A DNA stretch of 64,000 nucleotides from Butyrivibrio sp. (GTDB lineage Bacteria > Bacillota > Clostridia > Lachnospirales > Lachnospiraceae), in assembly GCA_017413105.1 (NCBI GenBank), contig JAFPVA010000204.1, positions 1 through 64,000 on the forward strand. The letters are read 5' to 3'. Each line of letters starts with the position of its first letter. Position 1 is the first letter of the stretch. The translations under genes were made by a program, and so were the position numbers. Under the pieces are notes generated by a model. The model worked only from the letters and a program-made list of their open reading frames with translations. It did no database searches and had not been told where the DNA came from. Below are positions 21,726 through 28,652 of this stretch, piece after piece.

Positions 21726-22103
21726 CTATTCCTCGTCAGGATCTCCAAATATTTTGTCTACTGCCTTGATAACGTCTGTGGCTGTAAAGGGTTTTATGAC
21801 AAAGTCCTTGGCCCCTTTCTTTATGGCAAGAACAATCATATTCTCATATTTTTGGTCAGAGCACATTATGACATTTGCCTTAGGGTCATAGGCAATGACC
21901 TCAGTCAGAGCATCTATTCCGTTCATTTTAGGCATATTAATATCAAGAATCATCAGATCGGGCTGTCGGTCCTTATAGTACTGAACCGCCATTGCTCCGT
22001 CTGTAGCCTCTCCGATGATCTGGAACTTCTCGGGATCCAACGCAGCTTTGATCATTTCTCTCATTAAAGTCGTGTCATCAGCTATCAGAATCTTTTTCCT
22101 CAT
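21726..22103 (-). CDS. Single-domain response regulator (CheY-like)
   Basis: The 125-residue protein is one receiver domain with every key residue: the acidic pair Asp9/Asp10 (ILIADD), phospho-acceptor Asp54 (LMILDINMP), Ser82 (MCSDQ) and Lys104 (VIKPF). It lacks an output domain. CheY-type proteins act on the flagellar switch or on other phosphorelay partners. No kinase or che gene is adjacent, though a chemoreceptor lies at 35.6 kb. GGAGAGAC precedes the ATG. It is monocistronic, with a terminator just downstream. Confidence 0.88.
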   Translation of the reverse strand: MRKKILIADDTTLMREMIKAALDPEKFQIIGEATDGAMAVQYYKDRQPDLMILDINMPKMNGIDALTEVIAYDPKANVIMCSDQKYENMIVLAIKKGAKDFVIKPFTATDVIKAVDKIFGDPDEE

Positions 22104-22207: not shown

Positions 22208-23224
22208 TCAAATTCCATAATTATCTATATCATCTTTTGTTATATGTTCCGCATCAAAACCCTTTTCCTTAAGGATAATGGTCTTATCTGCAAGCCTTCC
22301 TCCACTCTCGATAGTCTTTATTATCTCGTCAATATATGTGGCCTGATATGGATTGCATTGCCCAATATAATTCCAATTCTGTCTAAGAACCTCATCCATA
22401 GCCCAGGTGTTACAGTCAAAACTGATTATGATCACATCTTTCCCGGGACCATGGGTAATACCTGCTTCATCTAAGGCTGCAACTGCGCCTCTGGTCATAT
22501 TGTCATTTTCAGAGTAGATTACATTGAAGGTTGTTCCGCTTTTTATAGCCTCTGCAACTATTTCTTTTGCCTTTCCTTCATCCCAGTCTGCGGATCTCTG
22601 AATGGCAATTTTCCAGTTAAAACTGCTATCCACCTTCTCTTTAAGCGCCTCTGTTCTACCCTTTTGTGCAGCACTTCCAAGGGCACCCTGAAGATGAAGG
22701 ATCCTATATTTTATCAGCCCTTGTTCTGCCAGCCAGTCAACTGCCATCTGGCCTTCTACAAGCATGTCAGAGACCACAGACGCCTCATAAAGACTCTCAT
22801 CTGCGTCTATTGTTCTGTCAAAAAGAATGACTCTTACACCCTTTTCTTTTGCCTTTTCCAAGACCTCTGTCCAGCCTTCTGTATCTGCAGCAGCTAAAAG
22901 AAGATAATAAACGCCTCCATCAATCATGTCTTCTGCCATCTGTTTCTGCTCTTCATTATCCATGCTGTAGGCAAAAGAAGCATCATATCCTCTTTCCTCA
23001 GTGAATCTTTTCTGCAGATCAGCTACATTCGCTGCTCTGTAACTGGACTCATTTGGATTCACATTCACAATCCCAACTTTTATAAGCTCACCATTTCGTT
23101 TGGGATTCCAGGCATGCTGCCGTTTAATGCTTCCACACGCCACAAGGGCTAGTGCCATTATCAGCACTAGCCAAAGACAGACTATTTTTTTTCGTTTACG
23201 ATTACTGGGCATACTCGTATTCAT
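22208..23224 (-). CDS. Sugar-binding lipoprotein (periplasmic-binding-protein type 1, galactose/ribose family)
   Basis: The 338-residue protein has a lipoprotein signal (VLIMALALVACG) and a type 1 sugar-binding fold with LLLAAADTEGWTEVLEKAK, VILFDRTI and IYSENDNMTRGAVAALDEAG. No permease or ATPase gene is next to it, so it may serve a transporter encoded elsewhere or a signalling system. Its start overlaps the end of the sortase-fused surface protein gene by 23 bases on the same strand, so translation is likely coupled. An internal ATG at 23212 is an alternative start; neither has a strong ribosome site. Confidence 0.82.
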   Translation of the reverse strand: MNTSMPSNRKRKKIVCLWLVLIMALALVACGSIKRQHAWNPKRNGELIKVGIVNVNPNESSYRAANVADLQKRFTEERGYDASFAYSMDNEEQKQMAEDMIDGGVYYLLLAAADTEGWTEVLEKAKEKGVRVILFDRTIDADESLYEASVVSDMLVEGQMAVDWLAEQGLIKYRILHLQGALGSAAQKGRTEALKEKVDSSFNWKIAIQRSADWDEGKAKEIVAEAIKSGTTFNVIYSENDNMTRGAVAALDEAGITHGPGKDVIIISFDCNTWAMDEVLRQNWNYIGQCNPYQATYIDEIIKTIESGGRLADKTIILKEKGFDAEHITKDDIDNYGI

Positions 23225-26200
23225 CTGTGCGAACTGCGCTTACAATAAGCCTCTCGTCATCCTTGTTGGTACAGGTTGCCAAAGTAACCACATGATCTGC
23301 TTCATTTGCTGTAATTCCGGATTTGCAATAGGAGTCCCGCTCAATCTCTTTTAACATATCGAAATATCCCGTAGGCTCTTTTCCAAATACCCAGAACACG
23401 TCATGACTATCGGCAACTACCTCATAGGCAAAAATCTGATATCTGTAAACCTTATCTTCTGTAAAAATCTGGAAATACTGATGATCCTGGTAATAATCCG
23501 GATTTGTTCTGTAGTAACGAAGCTTTCCAAACATACTAAGATCATGCATATTGTGGCCATAAACTATGCTATGAGGGTCGGTAAAATCAGGTGTTGACTC
23601 ACCATCAATAAAGATAGAGCCTGCTTTTGCCTTCTCTCCGGTATAAGTAGTGCGAAGATACTTGGAATTATCCCCGGAATACATAACAGGATAGCTTATA
23701 TCCTCATTTTCAAAATAAATCCAGCCAACTACATCAGGATATTCCTTCTTGAGTTCCTTAAGGTTAACCTGTGCGCAGTCCCACCAGTTAGTATTCTCGG
23801 CAAAAGACCCCTCTACGTAATCAACGTCCTCGCCATCAGCAACAACTTTCTCTTCGCTATCCTTTGCTGACTCTACATAAGTCTTATCAGCCTTTGAATA
23901 TATAGTCTCCGACTTATGATATTGAAAAAAAGTAGTAGCCAGAACTATAACGGATACGACAGCCACGGCACCTCCAACCATAACAAGTGCTTTTAATCTA
24001 TTCTGCCGAATTTTCTTTAGAATAAACGCCCAGGTGGTGGAAATGACAATTCCGATAAGGAGCAAAATCTTCCTTGCCTTAGTCATAGGTCTCTTTGCTC
24101 TGTCTGTCCCATTTTTCATGTCCATCAGCTCTTTTAATGAACATCCAAAGGTAGCAACTCCTGCCACAAGAAGCAGAACCCAAAGCCATACTACAGGAAG
24201 GTCATCGGAGGTCTTTGGTGCACGTGCTCCGTTTACAGCGCTATCAGAGCCAGAGGCGCTGTTTGCAGCTGCTTTAGAAGAGTCAAGACCAGTGGCATTA
24301 TTCGATGTCCATCCAGCAGTTAAAGTAAAGTCAGTTGTAACCGCTGTATCAAAATTATAGGCAGATGAGGATGATGCCGTTGCAGCAGTTCCCTTAAACC
24401 ATCCCTTAAATGTATATCCCTCCTTAGTAGGGTCAGGTGAAGGCCTAGGAACCTTTTCTCCATTTACAACTTTTACAGTCCACTTCTTGGAACCATCATC
24501 AAATGTTACTGTTTGATACTTTTTAAATATTGCGTAAAGAGTTAGATTTTTAGTAACTGCTGTATCAAAATTATAATATGACGTCGATGAGGTTGAAGAC
24601 GTAGAAGACGTTGTACTCCAACCAGCGAATGCATATCCGTCCTTAGTAGGATCCTTAGGTTTCTCGACCTTGCCACCCATTTTTACTTTTGCTGTCGATA
24701 AAGTTGTACTTCCCTCTTTAAAAGTTACAATAGGATACTGAACCGGCTTATATGCAATTCCAAAGACAGAAAATTTGGCAGAATAAATCTCAATCTTTTT
24801 ATTCTTTTCATCAATAGTATATGCACCATCTGGAGTATTATTTAAGTCAGAATATGTGACATTTCCAAGACTGTCCTTATGGTACCTATATACTCTAATA
24901 TCTTCTTTATCCGTGAAATCAAAGGAAACTTCTAGCTGAATTCTCTTTGGTAACTCATAAACCACCTCGGGAGCATTCTTTCCTACAGTCTTTATTATGC
25001 TTACATCAAAATACTCTGCAGGATATTGTGTTGAAGAAGTTCCGCTAGTTGTTAGCTTATCATATGAAGGAAGCAAATTCTTTATTGCCTTTACTTCAGT
25101 TGAAGATGAAGTTGTACTATCAGTAACCCCTGTAGTAACAAGCATAACATCGACATTCTGAGTTGCAGTACCCAATGATTTTGCATAATCAGACAATTCT
25201 GAACCAACTACTTTGACTGATTTTATCCCTTTGTCGCCACCTCCGTAATATGGATACTCTTCAACTGTCTTTGTAATTTTGGCTAATGCTGTATTTGAGG
25301 ATACTCCTCCTAAAGAAATATCAAATTTTATATTATTAAGATTTCCAACCCATGAAAGACTTATTGCAGCCGGACTAGCTTCTTCGATTGAATAATCTGC
25401 ATAGCTGTCTGGTTCACTATATGGTTTAAATGTCGAAGAACTTCCCATATAGTAACTGCTCTCAGGAGTTTTAGGTATTACTTTTACTGAATATATATCA
25501 TCAGAACCATCATTGACAGCTATTTGTGCCTTCTCAATCGTAGATGTTCCAATAACAGACATGCTCTGTAATCCGTCTGCAGCTGTTGCTTTTTGTTCAA
25601 TGCAATTGCTTCCTACTCCACCGATTTGGCATGTTGCACCAATGGCCTGATTAGGGTAACTTCCATCTGGCTTTGCATTCACATGAAGCACTTTTTCATC
25701 TTCATCAAATGCAAAATGTAAGTACTCTAAATGATACTCATTTGCATTTGAAGTAATATTTTTAAGATCGTCATTTTCTAGGTTACAAAATATTTTCCAA
25801 CCTGCACCATTCTTAGTGGTCTGCTGCATCTTCTTTGTGGAACCAACAACTTGCTCTCCCACAACATCAAATACTATTTTATTACCACCATTATCAACAA
25901 TTGTATATGCAATTGTGCCATTACTAATGTAGCACTGTGTTCCATTAGCTCCACAGTATGCTTTCCAAGATCTTGCATCTCCATCTGGCGTAATTATCTG
26001 CACTGCATTGCTTGGAATACCATTAACAACGCATCTAATCCATTTCCCTTCATACCCAAACGAAGTTCCTGTTCCCTTTTGATGGAAATAATCCTGATTT
26101 GCTAAGTCTATATCTTCCCAGCCGTTCTCATTATTCCCGCTATTCTTTTGCCACTGGAACAGAACGTCATCCGTTGAGTCAGACACTGGCATTCTCAATT

Positions 26201-28652
26201 TAAACTCATGATCGGATAATTTTTCTCCATATGGATATCCCCCATTGAGTTCCTCAACCTCAGAGTCACTCTTATCTGTTATAACTAGTGGATAATCCAG
26301 ATTATTGTATGTAACAGTTATAGTTTTCTCGCCCAAATCTGAGAAAAGCCTCTTAACAATGAGGAAATAATCTCCTGTAGTGGAAGTTTCATACAAGCCA
26401 TCTGTGTTAACAACAGGTCCTGTTCCAGATAGTGCTAACCTTTCAGCAGTAAAGAAGTCTAAATCCGCCTTTGGAATAGATACAGCCGTTATATCTGCAA
26501 TTTTCCCAAACTTATCATCAAACAAATTCTCAAGATTCAAAATTGATGATTTAAGATCATACTTTATAGAATCGGAAATAACAAATAATAAAGAATATGT
26601 CGAGAATCCCTCTGTAACCGCCTCAACAGCCTTATTCTCCTCACCTTCTACTACCGCCACTTCCAGTTTTTGAACTGTGATTTCACCCTCTAAAGATGCC
26701 TTTTCTTCATTATTCTCCTTGTCTTCAGTCTCAGCCTTTTCACCCTCAGCTGCTTCATCGCTCTTCTTTTCTTCAGTATTCTCGGAAGAATCGCTACTTG
26801 AAGCCGCATTTACAGTCTCTTTTGCCTCCCCTGCATTCTCAGTCTCTACAATATGGTAGATTTCCGCATTAAGTTCAGCATTTGAAACCTCTTCAGTCTC
26901 AAATGATACGAATACTCTGCCCTTCTCTGTATCTGGCTCTATCTCATTTCCGTCCTTATCTCTGATCTGGATATCAAAGGTATAGGACTTAACAATATTT
27001 GCACTTTCCTCCATCTGCCCGGCTACAGCATCCTGGACCTTCTTCTCGTCCTCTTCCTGGAGCTTCTGAGCAAACAAAGTAGCACCCTCAGGGAACACAC
27101 CCTTGTCGGCGCGAACACGAATCTTGACGTTGTCTACTGTAACAACTTTGTCAAAATCAAAAATCTCTTCTACTACAGTTACTCTGATCGTTGGAAGGTC
27201 TGCTTCAACATAGTAATAATCCGGGATAACAAGAACCGGGATAAATGTAAACTGTCTTCCTACTACATCAGTAGTAAACTCGCTGTATTCATTCTTAAGA
27301 GGGTCAAGGATCCACTTGATTCCTGATACCATCTCAACGCTTATTTCTTCAGGACTATAAGTAGATATATCTCTCTTAACTGTTTCATATTCATAATTAC
27401 CGGTCCAGGATGTATCTGCAGCAGTAGTGCTGTCCTCTCCAGTAACAGTTTCTGCTGATTTCTCAGTGTCAGCCTTTTCCTCTACTGCCTTCTCCTCAGC
27501 TTTCTCCTCTGCAGGTGCTTCGGATTCATTCTCTGATGCATTTTCTGTATCTTCTTCGAAAACCATCTGTTCTTCTGTAGGAGCTGCTTCTTCCTTTTTG
27601 TTTTCTTCTGAAGACTCGCTATCGGTTTTTTCTACAGAATCTCCACTACTTTCCTCTACTGCTTCAACATCTTCAGCAGCGTGAACAACCAATGCTTTGA
27701 AAACAGATGTTATTTTGCTTATAAGATTCTCTTCAGAACTGCTTTCCTCTGTTCCAGCGCCATCACTTTCGGACTCAGCAGGAGCCTGCTCAGGAGCCTG
27801 CTCAGGAGCCTGCTCAGGAGCTGCTTCACTGGTACTTTCATTATTACTGCTTCCTGCGTCTTCGCTGCTCTGTTCCTGAGGTGCTGCTTCAACATTCTCT
27901 GTTTTGCTACTTTCTGAATTACCTGAATCAGTAGTTGCCTGCTCAGTGGATGCTGCTTCATTAGCTTTATCCTCAGTCTTACTCTCATCCTTAATCGGAC
28001 TTGAAACATTCTGACTCTCGGAAACTGTGCTTTCTTCGCTTATGATTTCTTCTTCAACATACTCTTCCGCTGACTGCTCTTCTGATTTTTCGGAATTACC
28101 CTCAATTGGAGCCCCCTCAGAGTCAAAGAAGATGATCCTCTCTCCATCCTCCAGAAGCATACCTTCCTCTGATGCTTCCTTCTTTTCTGCTTCCTCTACC
28201 TCTTTTTCCTTTTCTTCTGTCTTCTTTTCCTTTTCTTCCTTCTCAGCATCGCGCTCAAGCTGTCTTATCAGTTCTCTTTCTCTGCCAAGCTGCATATTGA
28301 TGCGGTCTTCTCTGTCTTCATCCGCAACAACAGAAATCTCCAGGGTATCAGGGAGATTAAGTTCATTTACATTTCCGCCAACTTTTATCTTTTGGTCTGT
28401 TATTTCCTCAGGAAGCTGCGTAAAGGCTGCTATCTTCACATATTCGACGTCATCAAAATATGAGTCCGGGACACTGGCTTCAGTATTTTCACCAGATTCC
28501 TGACTCTCGCCCTCTTCAGATGCTTCAACGGTCACTTCTTCCGCCGCAGTATCTGCAAGCTCCATATTCTTTTCCACCGCAAGGGACGTAAATCCGACAT
28601 TCGAGAAGAACAGAACATTAACGATTAAAATAGAAAGCAGTCTTTTTTTCAT
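23202..28652 (-). CDS. Giant secreted surface protein with InlB-type repeats fused to a C-terminal class B-type sortase
   Basis: The 1816-residue protein has a signal peptide (1-26) and a long Glu/Ser/Ala-rich acidic region (about 30-420) with an Ala-Pro-Glu-Gln repeat near 290. Beta-rich modules follow, including immunoglobulin-like parts, then two InlB B-type repeats (about 1307-1455: TVTFDDGSKKW, GYTFKGWF). A degenerate sorting-like motif, APKTSDD, precedes a membrane segment (about 1479-1506). After a basic stretch and two more hydrophobic segments (about 1522-1575) comes a sortase domain (1610-1816) with His in YGHNMH, Cys in ATCTN and Arg in SAVR. An adhesin and its own sortase in one chain is unusual; no frameshift is needed to read it. 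Confidence 0.85.
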   Translation of the reverse strand: MKKRLLSILIVNVLFFSNVGFTSLAVEKNMELADTAAEEVTVEASEEGESQESGENTEASVPDSYFDDVEYVKIAAFTQLPEEITDQKIKVGGNVNELNLPDTLEISVVADEDREDRINMQLGRERELIRQLERDAEKEEKEKKTEEKEKEVEEAEKKEASEEGMLLEDGERIIFFDSEGAPIEGNSEKSEEQSAEEYVEEEIISEESTVSESQNVSSPIKDESKTEDKANEAASTEQATTDSGNSESSKTENVEAAPQEQSSEDAGSSNNESTSEAAPEQAPEQAPEQAPAESESDGAGTEESSSEENLISKITSVFKALVVHAAEDVEAVEESSGDSVEKTDSESSEENKKEEAAPTEEQMVFEEDTENASENESEAPAEEKAEEKAVEEKADTEKSAETVTGEDSTTAADTSWTGNYEYETVKRDISTYSPEEISVEMVSGIKWILDPLKNEYSEFTTDVVGRQFTFIPVLVIPDYYYVEADLPTIRVTVVEEIFDFDKVVTVDNVKIRVRADKGVFPEGATLFAQKLQEEDEKKVQDAVAGQMEESANIVKSYTFDIQIRDKDGNEIEPDTEKGRVFVSFETEEVSNAELNAEIYHIVETENAGEAKETVNAASSSDSSENTEEKKSDEAAEGEKAETEDKENNEEKASLEGEITVQKLEVAVVEGEENKAVEAVTEGFSTYSLLFVISDSIKYDLKSSILNLENLFDDKFGKIADITAVSIPKADLDFFTAERLALSGTGPVVNTDGLYETSTTGDYFLIVKRLFSDLGEKTITVTYNNLDYPLVITDKSDSEVEELNGGYPYGEKLSDHEFKLRMPVSDSTDDVLFQWQKNSGNNENGWEDIDLANQDYFHQKGTGTSFGYEGKWIRCVVNGIPSNAVQIITPDGDARSWKAYCGANGTQCYISNGTIAYTIVDNGGNKIVFDVVGEQVVGSTKKMQQTTKNGAGWKIFCNLENDDLKNITSNANEYHLEYLHFAFDEDEKVLHVNAKPDGSYPNQAIGATCQIGGVGSNCIEQKATAADGLQSMSVIGTSTIEKAQIAVNDGSDDIYSVKVIPKTPESSYYMGSSSTFKPYSEPDSYADYSIEEASPAAISLSWVGNLNNIKFDISLGGVSSNTALAKITKTVEEYPYYGGGDKGIKSVKVVGSELSDYAKSLGTATQNVDVMLVTTGVTDSTTSSSTEVKAIKNLLPSYDKLTTSGTSSTQYPAEYFDVSIIKTVGKNAPEVVYELPKRIQLEVSFDFTDKEDIRVYRYHKDSLGNVTYSDLNNTPDGAYTIDEKNKKIEIYSAKFSVFGIAYKPVQYPIVTFKEGSTTLSTAKVKMGGKVEKPKDPTKDGYAFAGWSTTSSTSSTSSTSYYNFDTAVTKNLTLYAIFKKYQTVTFDDGSKKWTVKVVNGEKVPRPSPDPTKEGYTFKGWFKGTAATASSSSAYNFDTAVTTDFTLTAGWTSNNATGLDSSKAAANSASGSDSAVNGARAPKTSDDLPVVWLWVLLLVAGVATFGCSLKELMDMKNGTDRAKRPMTKARKILLLIGIVISTTWAFILKKIRQNRLKALVMVGGAVAVVSVIVLATTFFQYHKSETIYSKADKTYVESAKDSEEKVVADGEDVDYVEGSFAENTNWWDCAQVNLKELKKEYPDVVGWIYFENEDISYPVMYSGDNSKYLRTTYTGEKAKAGSIFIDGESTPDFTDPHSIVYGHNMHDLSMFGKLRYYRTNPDYYQDHQYFQIFTEDKVYRYQIFAYEVVADSHDVFWVFGKEPTGYFDMLKEIERDSYCKSGITANEADHVVTLATCTNKDDERLIVSAVRTDEYEYAQ
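27779..27826 (-). repeat. 12-bp tandem repeat inside the surface-protein gene
   Basis: A 12-base unit (CAGGAGCCTGCT on the plus strand) is repeated three to four times and encodes an Ala-Pro-Glu-Gln repeat. It keeps the reading frame and could vary in copy number. Confidence 0.8.

Follow-up and report, generated by a model that had tools for sequence, protein, structure and literature searches.

An adhesin and a class B-like sortase in one chain in Butyrivibrio: a candidate self-sorting surface protein

Work on sortases has dealt with enzymes encoded apart from their substrates, the two meeting by diffusion. What, then, is to be made of a gene that encodes a surface adhesin, a sorting signal and a sortase as one chain, and could such an enzyme anchor the very protein of which it forms part? 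The question is raised by a 64,000-nucleotide stretch of a Butyrivibrio sp. draft genome (contig JAFPVA010000204.1, positions 1 to 64,000; hereafter the window), in which an open reading frame (ORF) at 23202-28652 on the minus strand runs from an ATG, preceded by a G-rich stretch, through 1816 codons without an internal stop. We confirmed that this adhesin-sortase fusion is real: chance or misassembly does not account for it, since 12 of the 79 genus genomes share the same single frame, among them the finished Butyrivibrio proteoclasticus B316T genome. The window is part of a fragmented draft (contig C168 of 327 contigs; 4.45 Mb, 94.9% complete, 7.3% contaminated) whose eight closest named relatives are all Butyrivibrio; its draft state might invite suspicion of an assembly or sequencing artefact, but the 11 other genomes with the fusion include isolates as well as B316T, and we give that explanation practically no credence. 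A stop or sequencing error between the two halves in the window is ruled out on the same grounds.

One frame with a sorting signal and a complete sortase

The features of the gene and its product are as follows (aa, amino acid residues; TM, transmembrane segment).

23202..28652, minus strand: adhesin-sortase fusion gene, 1816 aa, one uninterrupted frame
28575..28652, minus strand: signal peptide, about aa 1-26, MKKR plus a hydrophobic stretch, judged by eye
27393..28565, minus strand: acidic low-complexity stalk, aa 30-420, 31% Asp plus Glu
24753..27365, minus strand: conserved adhesin arm, aa 430-1300, 33-56% identity across nine aligned relatives
24531..24728, minus strand: Listeria-Bacteroides (List_Bact) repeat 1, aa 1309-1374, PF09479
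24297..24431, minus strand: Listeria-Bacteroides (List_Bact) repeat 2, aa 1408-1452, TIGR02543
24204..24224, minus strand: sorting motif RAPKTSD, aa 1477-1483
24144..24200, minus strand: TM1, of the sorting signal, aa 1485-1503, Kyte-Doolittle 2.18
24015..24071, minus strand: middle hydrophobic segment, aa 1528-1546, Kyte-Doolittle 1.85
23934..23990, minus strand: TM3, the sortase's own anchor, aa 1555-1573, Kyte-Doolittle 2.54
23241..23762, minus strand: class B-like sortase domain, aa 1631-1804, by Pfam, NCBIfam and PDB sequence matches
23553..23555, minus strand: catalytic His1700
23271..23273, minus strand: catalytic Cys1794
23250..23252, minus strand: catalytic Arg1801

An earlier, sequence-only reading of the window had described one chain joining an adhesin to a complete sortase (His, Cys and Arg present) in an uninterrupted frame, with a sorting-like motif and a membrane segment between them. 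Both descriptions hold. The first is borne out by the ORF, the domain matches and the catalytic triad, whose three residues are invariant in 13/13 fused and 3/3 split rows of the alignment. As to the second, RAPKTSDD (aa 1477-1484) and the segment after it make up a genuine sorting-type signal, the motif aligning with the RAPQTGD of substrates encoded apart from their sortases. Signal peptide, motif, hydrophobic segment and charged tail, the features of a sorting substrate, were all found, with the basic stretch after TM1 running on into the sortase and not ending the chain; the pentapeptide itself is APKTS instead of the canonical xPxTG. A search that looks for sorting signals at the ends of proteins would overlook surface proteins of this kind. 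A Pfam scan of the adhesin arm (aa 430-1300) matched no family.

The sortase domain matches PF04203 at 44.8 bits (cut-off 26.6), and its best PDB sequence match is Lmo2181 (5jcv, E 1.2e-27). Distinct PDB sequences matched numbered 21, of which the best 15 hit the sortase part and the other six are internalin B; twelve of the 15 are named sortase B, SrtB or C60B, and the remaining three are Lmo2181, BA4783 and a hypothetical exported protein. The solved relatives matched include 4ux7, which we take to be a structure from Clostridioides difficile. Against the NCBIfam class B profile TIGR03064 the window sortase scored 133 bits, below the cut-off of 153.75, and we call it class B-like for this reason. 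All five fused proteins scanned with this profile (the window, L111, L044, L041 and L039) fell below the cut-off, while two of five separate sortases passed (L113, 164.2; L140, 158.8) and three failed (L042, L134 and L051).

In the five fused pairs compared, the ratio of nonsynonymous to synonymous differences (pN/pS) was 0.03-0.13 in the sortase, 0.15-0.45 in the arm and 0.14-0.47 in the junction. The sortase half, with its invariant triad, is clearly maintained and under strong purifying selection. In one pair of loci (L037 and L038, in G002 and G004) arm and sortase are near-identical (pS 0.20 and 0.06) and the junction is divergent (pS 0.59), looking as if it had been swapped by recombination. 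Elsewhere, a 582-aa frame of G054 (L049, 3726-5474, plus strand) holds two separate sortase-domain matches, a tandem double sortase.

Spread and origin of the fusion

The search for the same fusion in related genomes that had been proposed for the window found the architecture at 13 loci in those 12 Butyrivibrio genomes, in frames of 1094 to 1816 aa; the shortest, in G002, is truncated at its 5' end by the contig end and was counted, and a match in G107 that reaches a contig end was excluded. In the rumen bacterium B316T the fusion lies on a finished replicon, the chromid BPc2 (G100 contig C2). The adherence section of the genome paper does not mention a fused sortase (PMC2914790). A search of the literature, covering leading titles and with subscription papers mostly outside it, met no natural fusion of substrate and sortase.

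In several other Lachnospiraceae the two parts are neighbours. Among 397 genomes of the family, 80 had a match at E 1e-45, and among the 87 places listed only the window exceeded 452 aa; here and in the class and order searches below, at most five candidates per genome were scored, so that fusion counts are lower bounds. Adhesins with AAPKTGD, KAPKTGD and GAPKTGD directly precede a separate sortase in G290 (60 bases apart), G216 (4-base overlap) and G195, respectively, as does one with the unusual, non-canonical AAKTLD in G251. Loci with adjacent genes in the order substrate, sortase are L134, L135, L140, L141 and L113, together with plasmid pCY360 of B316T itself (sortase on G100 contig C3). 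Within Butyrivibrio, split or out-of-frame halves occur in three genomes (G058, G019 and G103). Comparison of these loci thus shows a sorting substrate and a class B-like sortase, adjacent genes elsewhere, joined into one chain. The sequence-only reading had taken homologues consistently split at this point as the outcome that would speak against it. That outcome did not arise within Butyrivibrio, where 13 loci are fused, but the halves lie apart or out of frame in G058, G019, G103, pCY360 and several other genera.

The sortase tree groups 11 fused rows with G107 in one clade (support 95/96, or 89/98 in a larger tree). The fusions of G050 and G053 may represent a second event, suspected because their junction has a Pro-rich stalk and lacks the middle hydrophobic segment, which would give Butyrivibrio two fusion events instead of one. 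The fused adhesin of G050 (L044, 557-5680, plus strand) carries the NCBIfam choice-of-anchor L domain NF038133, the anchor here being a whole sortase.

A further family of fusions emerged outside the genus. Across 391 genomes of the class, 26 of which had a match at E 1e-35, at least one long frame came to light beyond the window and G053, of 1670 aa in G545; across 394 genomes of the order to which G545 belongs, 10 of which had a match at E 1e-50, there were at least three, in G545, G1238 and G1219, from three other families of Clostridia. These proteins, 66-76% identical to each other, consist of a thioester domain, eight or nine SpaA domains, VPQTGDD (kept in 3/3), a TM, a basic loop, a second TM and a sortase. 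In the tree their sortases are set apart from those of Butyrivibrio (100/99), in a group that also takes in a poorly covered row, G926, and when L197 was compared with the Butyrivibrio proteins all 17 matches lay at its aa 1334-1650 and none in the arm. We read this family as a separate origin. The one locus whose surroundings were checked, L206, has a CD1107-like mobile-element gene next to it, as well as an NlpC/P60 gene.

Known systems resemble the fusion in part. In oral streptococci the adhesin AbpA is likewise encoded beside a dedicated SrtB, which cuts between Thr and Ser of LPKTS, but AbpA, an amylase-binding protein, and SrtB are two separate proteins (PMC4974636, in part). C. difficile SrtB is also a class B sortase of the Clostridia, with (S/P)PxTG substrates and signals of the xPKTG type (parts of PMC5569036 and PMC5118464), yet it is a separate enzyme with several substrates encoded elsewhere. 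The split cassettes of the Lachnospiraceae (G290, G216, G195, G103 and pCY360) have homologous sortases beside adhesins with a sorting signal, but as separate genes with their own starts. A natural chain of substrate and enzyme that has apparently arisen at least twice offers a simple system for asking whether a sortase can act in cis to anchor the chain it belongs to, and how much drift a sorting motif can bear once it is joined to its enzyme.

Sorting site, topology and possible working

Across the 13 fused loci the motif retains Arg in 13, Ala in 13, Pro in 12, Thr in 10 and Asp in 11, with Gly in six at P1', the residue after the predicted cut, which in the window would fall between Thr1481 and Ser1482. 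Mean entropy is 0.73 bits for RAPKTSD, as low as in the sortase (0.70), compared with 1.25 in TM1 and 2.17 in the 20 residues upstream; P1' (1.99 bits) is the sole free position. To judge from these columns the motif is mostly maintained, the exceptions being P1' and one clade in which Thr has become Met. Cleavage between Thr and Ser of APKTS is plausible, because streptococcal SrtB cuts AbpA, the product of its neighbour gene, at the same bond of LPKTS (PMC4974636, in part). Class B sortases take motifs as varied as NPQTN, NAKTN and NPKSS (PMC5026354, in part).

Three hydrophobic segments between the halves had left the topology unclear in the sequence-only reading, and comparison largely explains them. 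In the alignment TM1 falls on the terminal TM of split substrates, the third segment on the N-terminal TM of separate sortases. Three of the 13 fusions (L041, L044 and L045) have two hydrophobic segments only, the middle one being missing, and by inspection so do the three mobile-element fusions; with two crossings, the motif and the sortase come to lie together on the outside. Given these two-segment fusions, the middle segment, which has basic residues on its flanks, is probably an extra one that does not cross the membrane.

On this arrangement, the N-terminal arm would be exported until TM1 halts transfer, leaving RAPxT outside and the basic stretch inside; TM3 would then cross back and set the sortase outward, beside the motif. 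The enzyme would cut after the Thr of RAPxTx in its own chain or a neighbouring copy and join the arm to peptidoglycan, leaving behind an ordinary membrane-bound sortase. Fusion would give each adhesin its enzyme, and a loose P1' residue might perhaps be tolerated. In the two sister species G058 and G019, slippage at a run of ten adenines (A10, below) would produce the fused form while plain substrate is made too. We consider it about an even chance that the fusion is self-sorting in this sense, an outward sortase cutting its own or neighbouring chains and anchoring the adhesin.

Several observations weigh against self-sorting. The Thr at P1 is Met in 3/13 fused loci (G002, G004a and G104, a single clade) and the motif Pro is Ala in one, and canonical xPxTG is kept in 3/13 fused loci versus 8/9 chosen split pairs (Fisher p 0.0075, kinship ignored); because of this last difference, the fused site may be decaying. 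The choice of the nine pairs was made by eye; among them are the out-of-frame G058 and G019 and one likewise non-canonical pair (G251, AAKTL); five of ten family regions were dropped as being without a clear adjacent sorting signal (G407, G255, G367, G147 and G178), and none of twenty further regions was counted, although upstream genes in L144, L150 and L163 have tails resembling a cell-wall sorting signal (CWSS), nor was the L198 pair. The sub-threshold class B score belongs on this side as well, as does a protein that might be a substrate in trans: L122 (contig C187 of the window's genome), with a PF00746 match of 15.3 bits below threshold and a tail of GARRSKTED, a TM and KKRKEEN. That genome is also a draft.

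The changed Thr and Pro and the candidate L122 lend themselves to the main rival, in which the arm stays uncut, the former sorting signal is no more than a membrane segment, and the sortase, its triad intact while Gly at P1' is lost in 7/13 loci, is displayed on a tether and acts in trans on other proteins. A C. difficile substrate without its SPKTG motif does remain in the membrane (PMC5569036, in part). The Thr-to-Met clade favours tethering there, and the rival may hold in that clade. For the fusions at large it seems unlikely to us: Arg, Ala, Pro and Thr are largely kept though nearby upstream residues vary freely, which favours self-processing, and the range of motifs accepted by class B sortases, LPKTS included, leaves room for the altered sites. 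Another account has the chain made fused but supplemented by free sortase from an internal start, so that the gene works like the adhesin-sortase pairs of its relatives, whose halves are expressed separately. The window has an ATG at codon 1512, and weak candidates precede TM3 in 7/13 loci, the window among them, which again counts against self-sorting. Scored against AGGAGG, however, no candidate before TM3 reaches a Shine-Dalgarno match of at least 5/6 in any of the 13 loci (a threshold that fails its own control, the fused genes' own ATG starts being mostly 4/6); at 4/6 there is none in 6/13 loci and no position common to all, and the constrained -1 frame of G058 and G019 lies upstream of any ATG, GTG or TTG. 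We hold this account to be improbable, more so than the tether.

Other sorting substrates in the window's genome were sought with profiles and patterns. With the CWSS profile the window alone fell below E 0.1, in keeping with self-sorting; of two matches to a narrow APKTGD-type pattern, neither had a fitting protein end; and PF00746 gave 14 matches at E 10, of which the two above the cut-off are LPSTG proteins of contig C56. That contig (L114) carries a pilin-like island of three LPxTG proteins, the third ending in LPQTG, beside two further sortases. Large proteins with GARR-x-(K/R)TED, a TM and a basic tail occur not only at L122 but also in relatives (L171, L182, L183 and L188; one in G050, two in G039 and one in G014), and this tail is possibly another Butyrivibrio sorting signal.

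The A10 junction of two species and the gene neighbourhood

In G058 and G019 the substrate ends in GDFKKKR and a stop, at TTC AAA AAA AAA AGA TAA, beyond which the sortase is encoded in the -1 frame. That frame has no ATG, GTG or TTG from the run to the first GTG in L042 (15th codon) or the first ATG in L043 (36th codon), nor, as read off the sequence, between its last upstream stop and the run. Over its first 36 codons, changes between the two species fall at codon positions 1/2/3 as 8/3/20 (chi-square p 0.0006), with pS 0.63 and pN 0.20. The first 14 codons, which in both species precede any such start, give pS 0.67 and pN 0.10. The other two frames give pS 0.20 and 0.12 and pN 0.33 and 0.34. 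The translated stretch resembles, by eye, the middle segment of the fused proteins, and AGAGG, likewise spotted by eye, stands shortly upstream of the run in both species. Because the -1 frame is conserved as protein and has no usual start codon before it, these data suggest that slippage makes the fusion in G058 and G019.

The junction could be accounted for by a ribosomal -1 shift, by slippage of the polymerase, or by a wrong run length in each of the two drafts. The last would make these genes plain in-frame fusions, and it touches the frameshift claim alone, not the window. Both genomes are many-contig drafts, one added base joins the frames, homopolymers are error-prone, and further A10 junctions were found in no other of the 79 genus genomes and in none of the viral contigs or plasmids searched. 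Yet the run has the same length in two species that are 68% identical over the genes, and in 311,340 bases of 29 Butyrivibrio loci the only runs of at least ten A or T are exactly these two junctions. We therefore think an error doubtful, if a little less so than the tether considered above. Of 30 KKK tripeptides in the ORFs of those loci, these two alone are spelled with nine A; the two species also share an unchanged stretch of 28 bases across the run, besides two other identical runs of 24 bases. Programmed frameshifting or slippage is familiar from dnaX. In genes of that type, too, a run of A closes one frame and the protein continues in the -1 frame, a likeness confined to G058 and G019; unlike them, these two have a shift predicted from sequence, and no stable RNA structure was found downstream, folding of four stretches giving nothing beyond shuffles (z -1.22, 1.00, -0.57 and -0.22). 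We tentatively propose, as a reading less likely than not, that the sortase is made only as a C-terminal extension of the anchored protein, by permanent in-frame fusion or, in these two species, by A10 slippage that would set the ratio of plain adhesin to adhesin-sortase. If true, the junction would be a route to enzyme dosage controlled by frameshifting.

As for the surroundings of the gene, the end of the fusion in the window is overlapped by 23 bases by a gene for a PF13407 periplasmic sugar-binding-type lipoprotein (22208-23224, minus strand), and after this comes a lone receiver-domain gene (21726-22103, minus strand). Similar genes lie downstream of the fusion at L035, and receiver or two-component genes near it at L040, L042, L043, L110 and L111.

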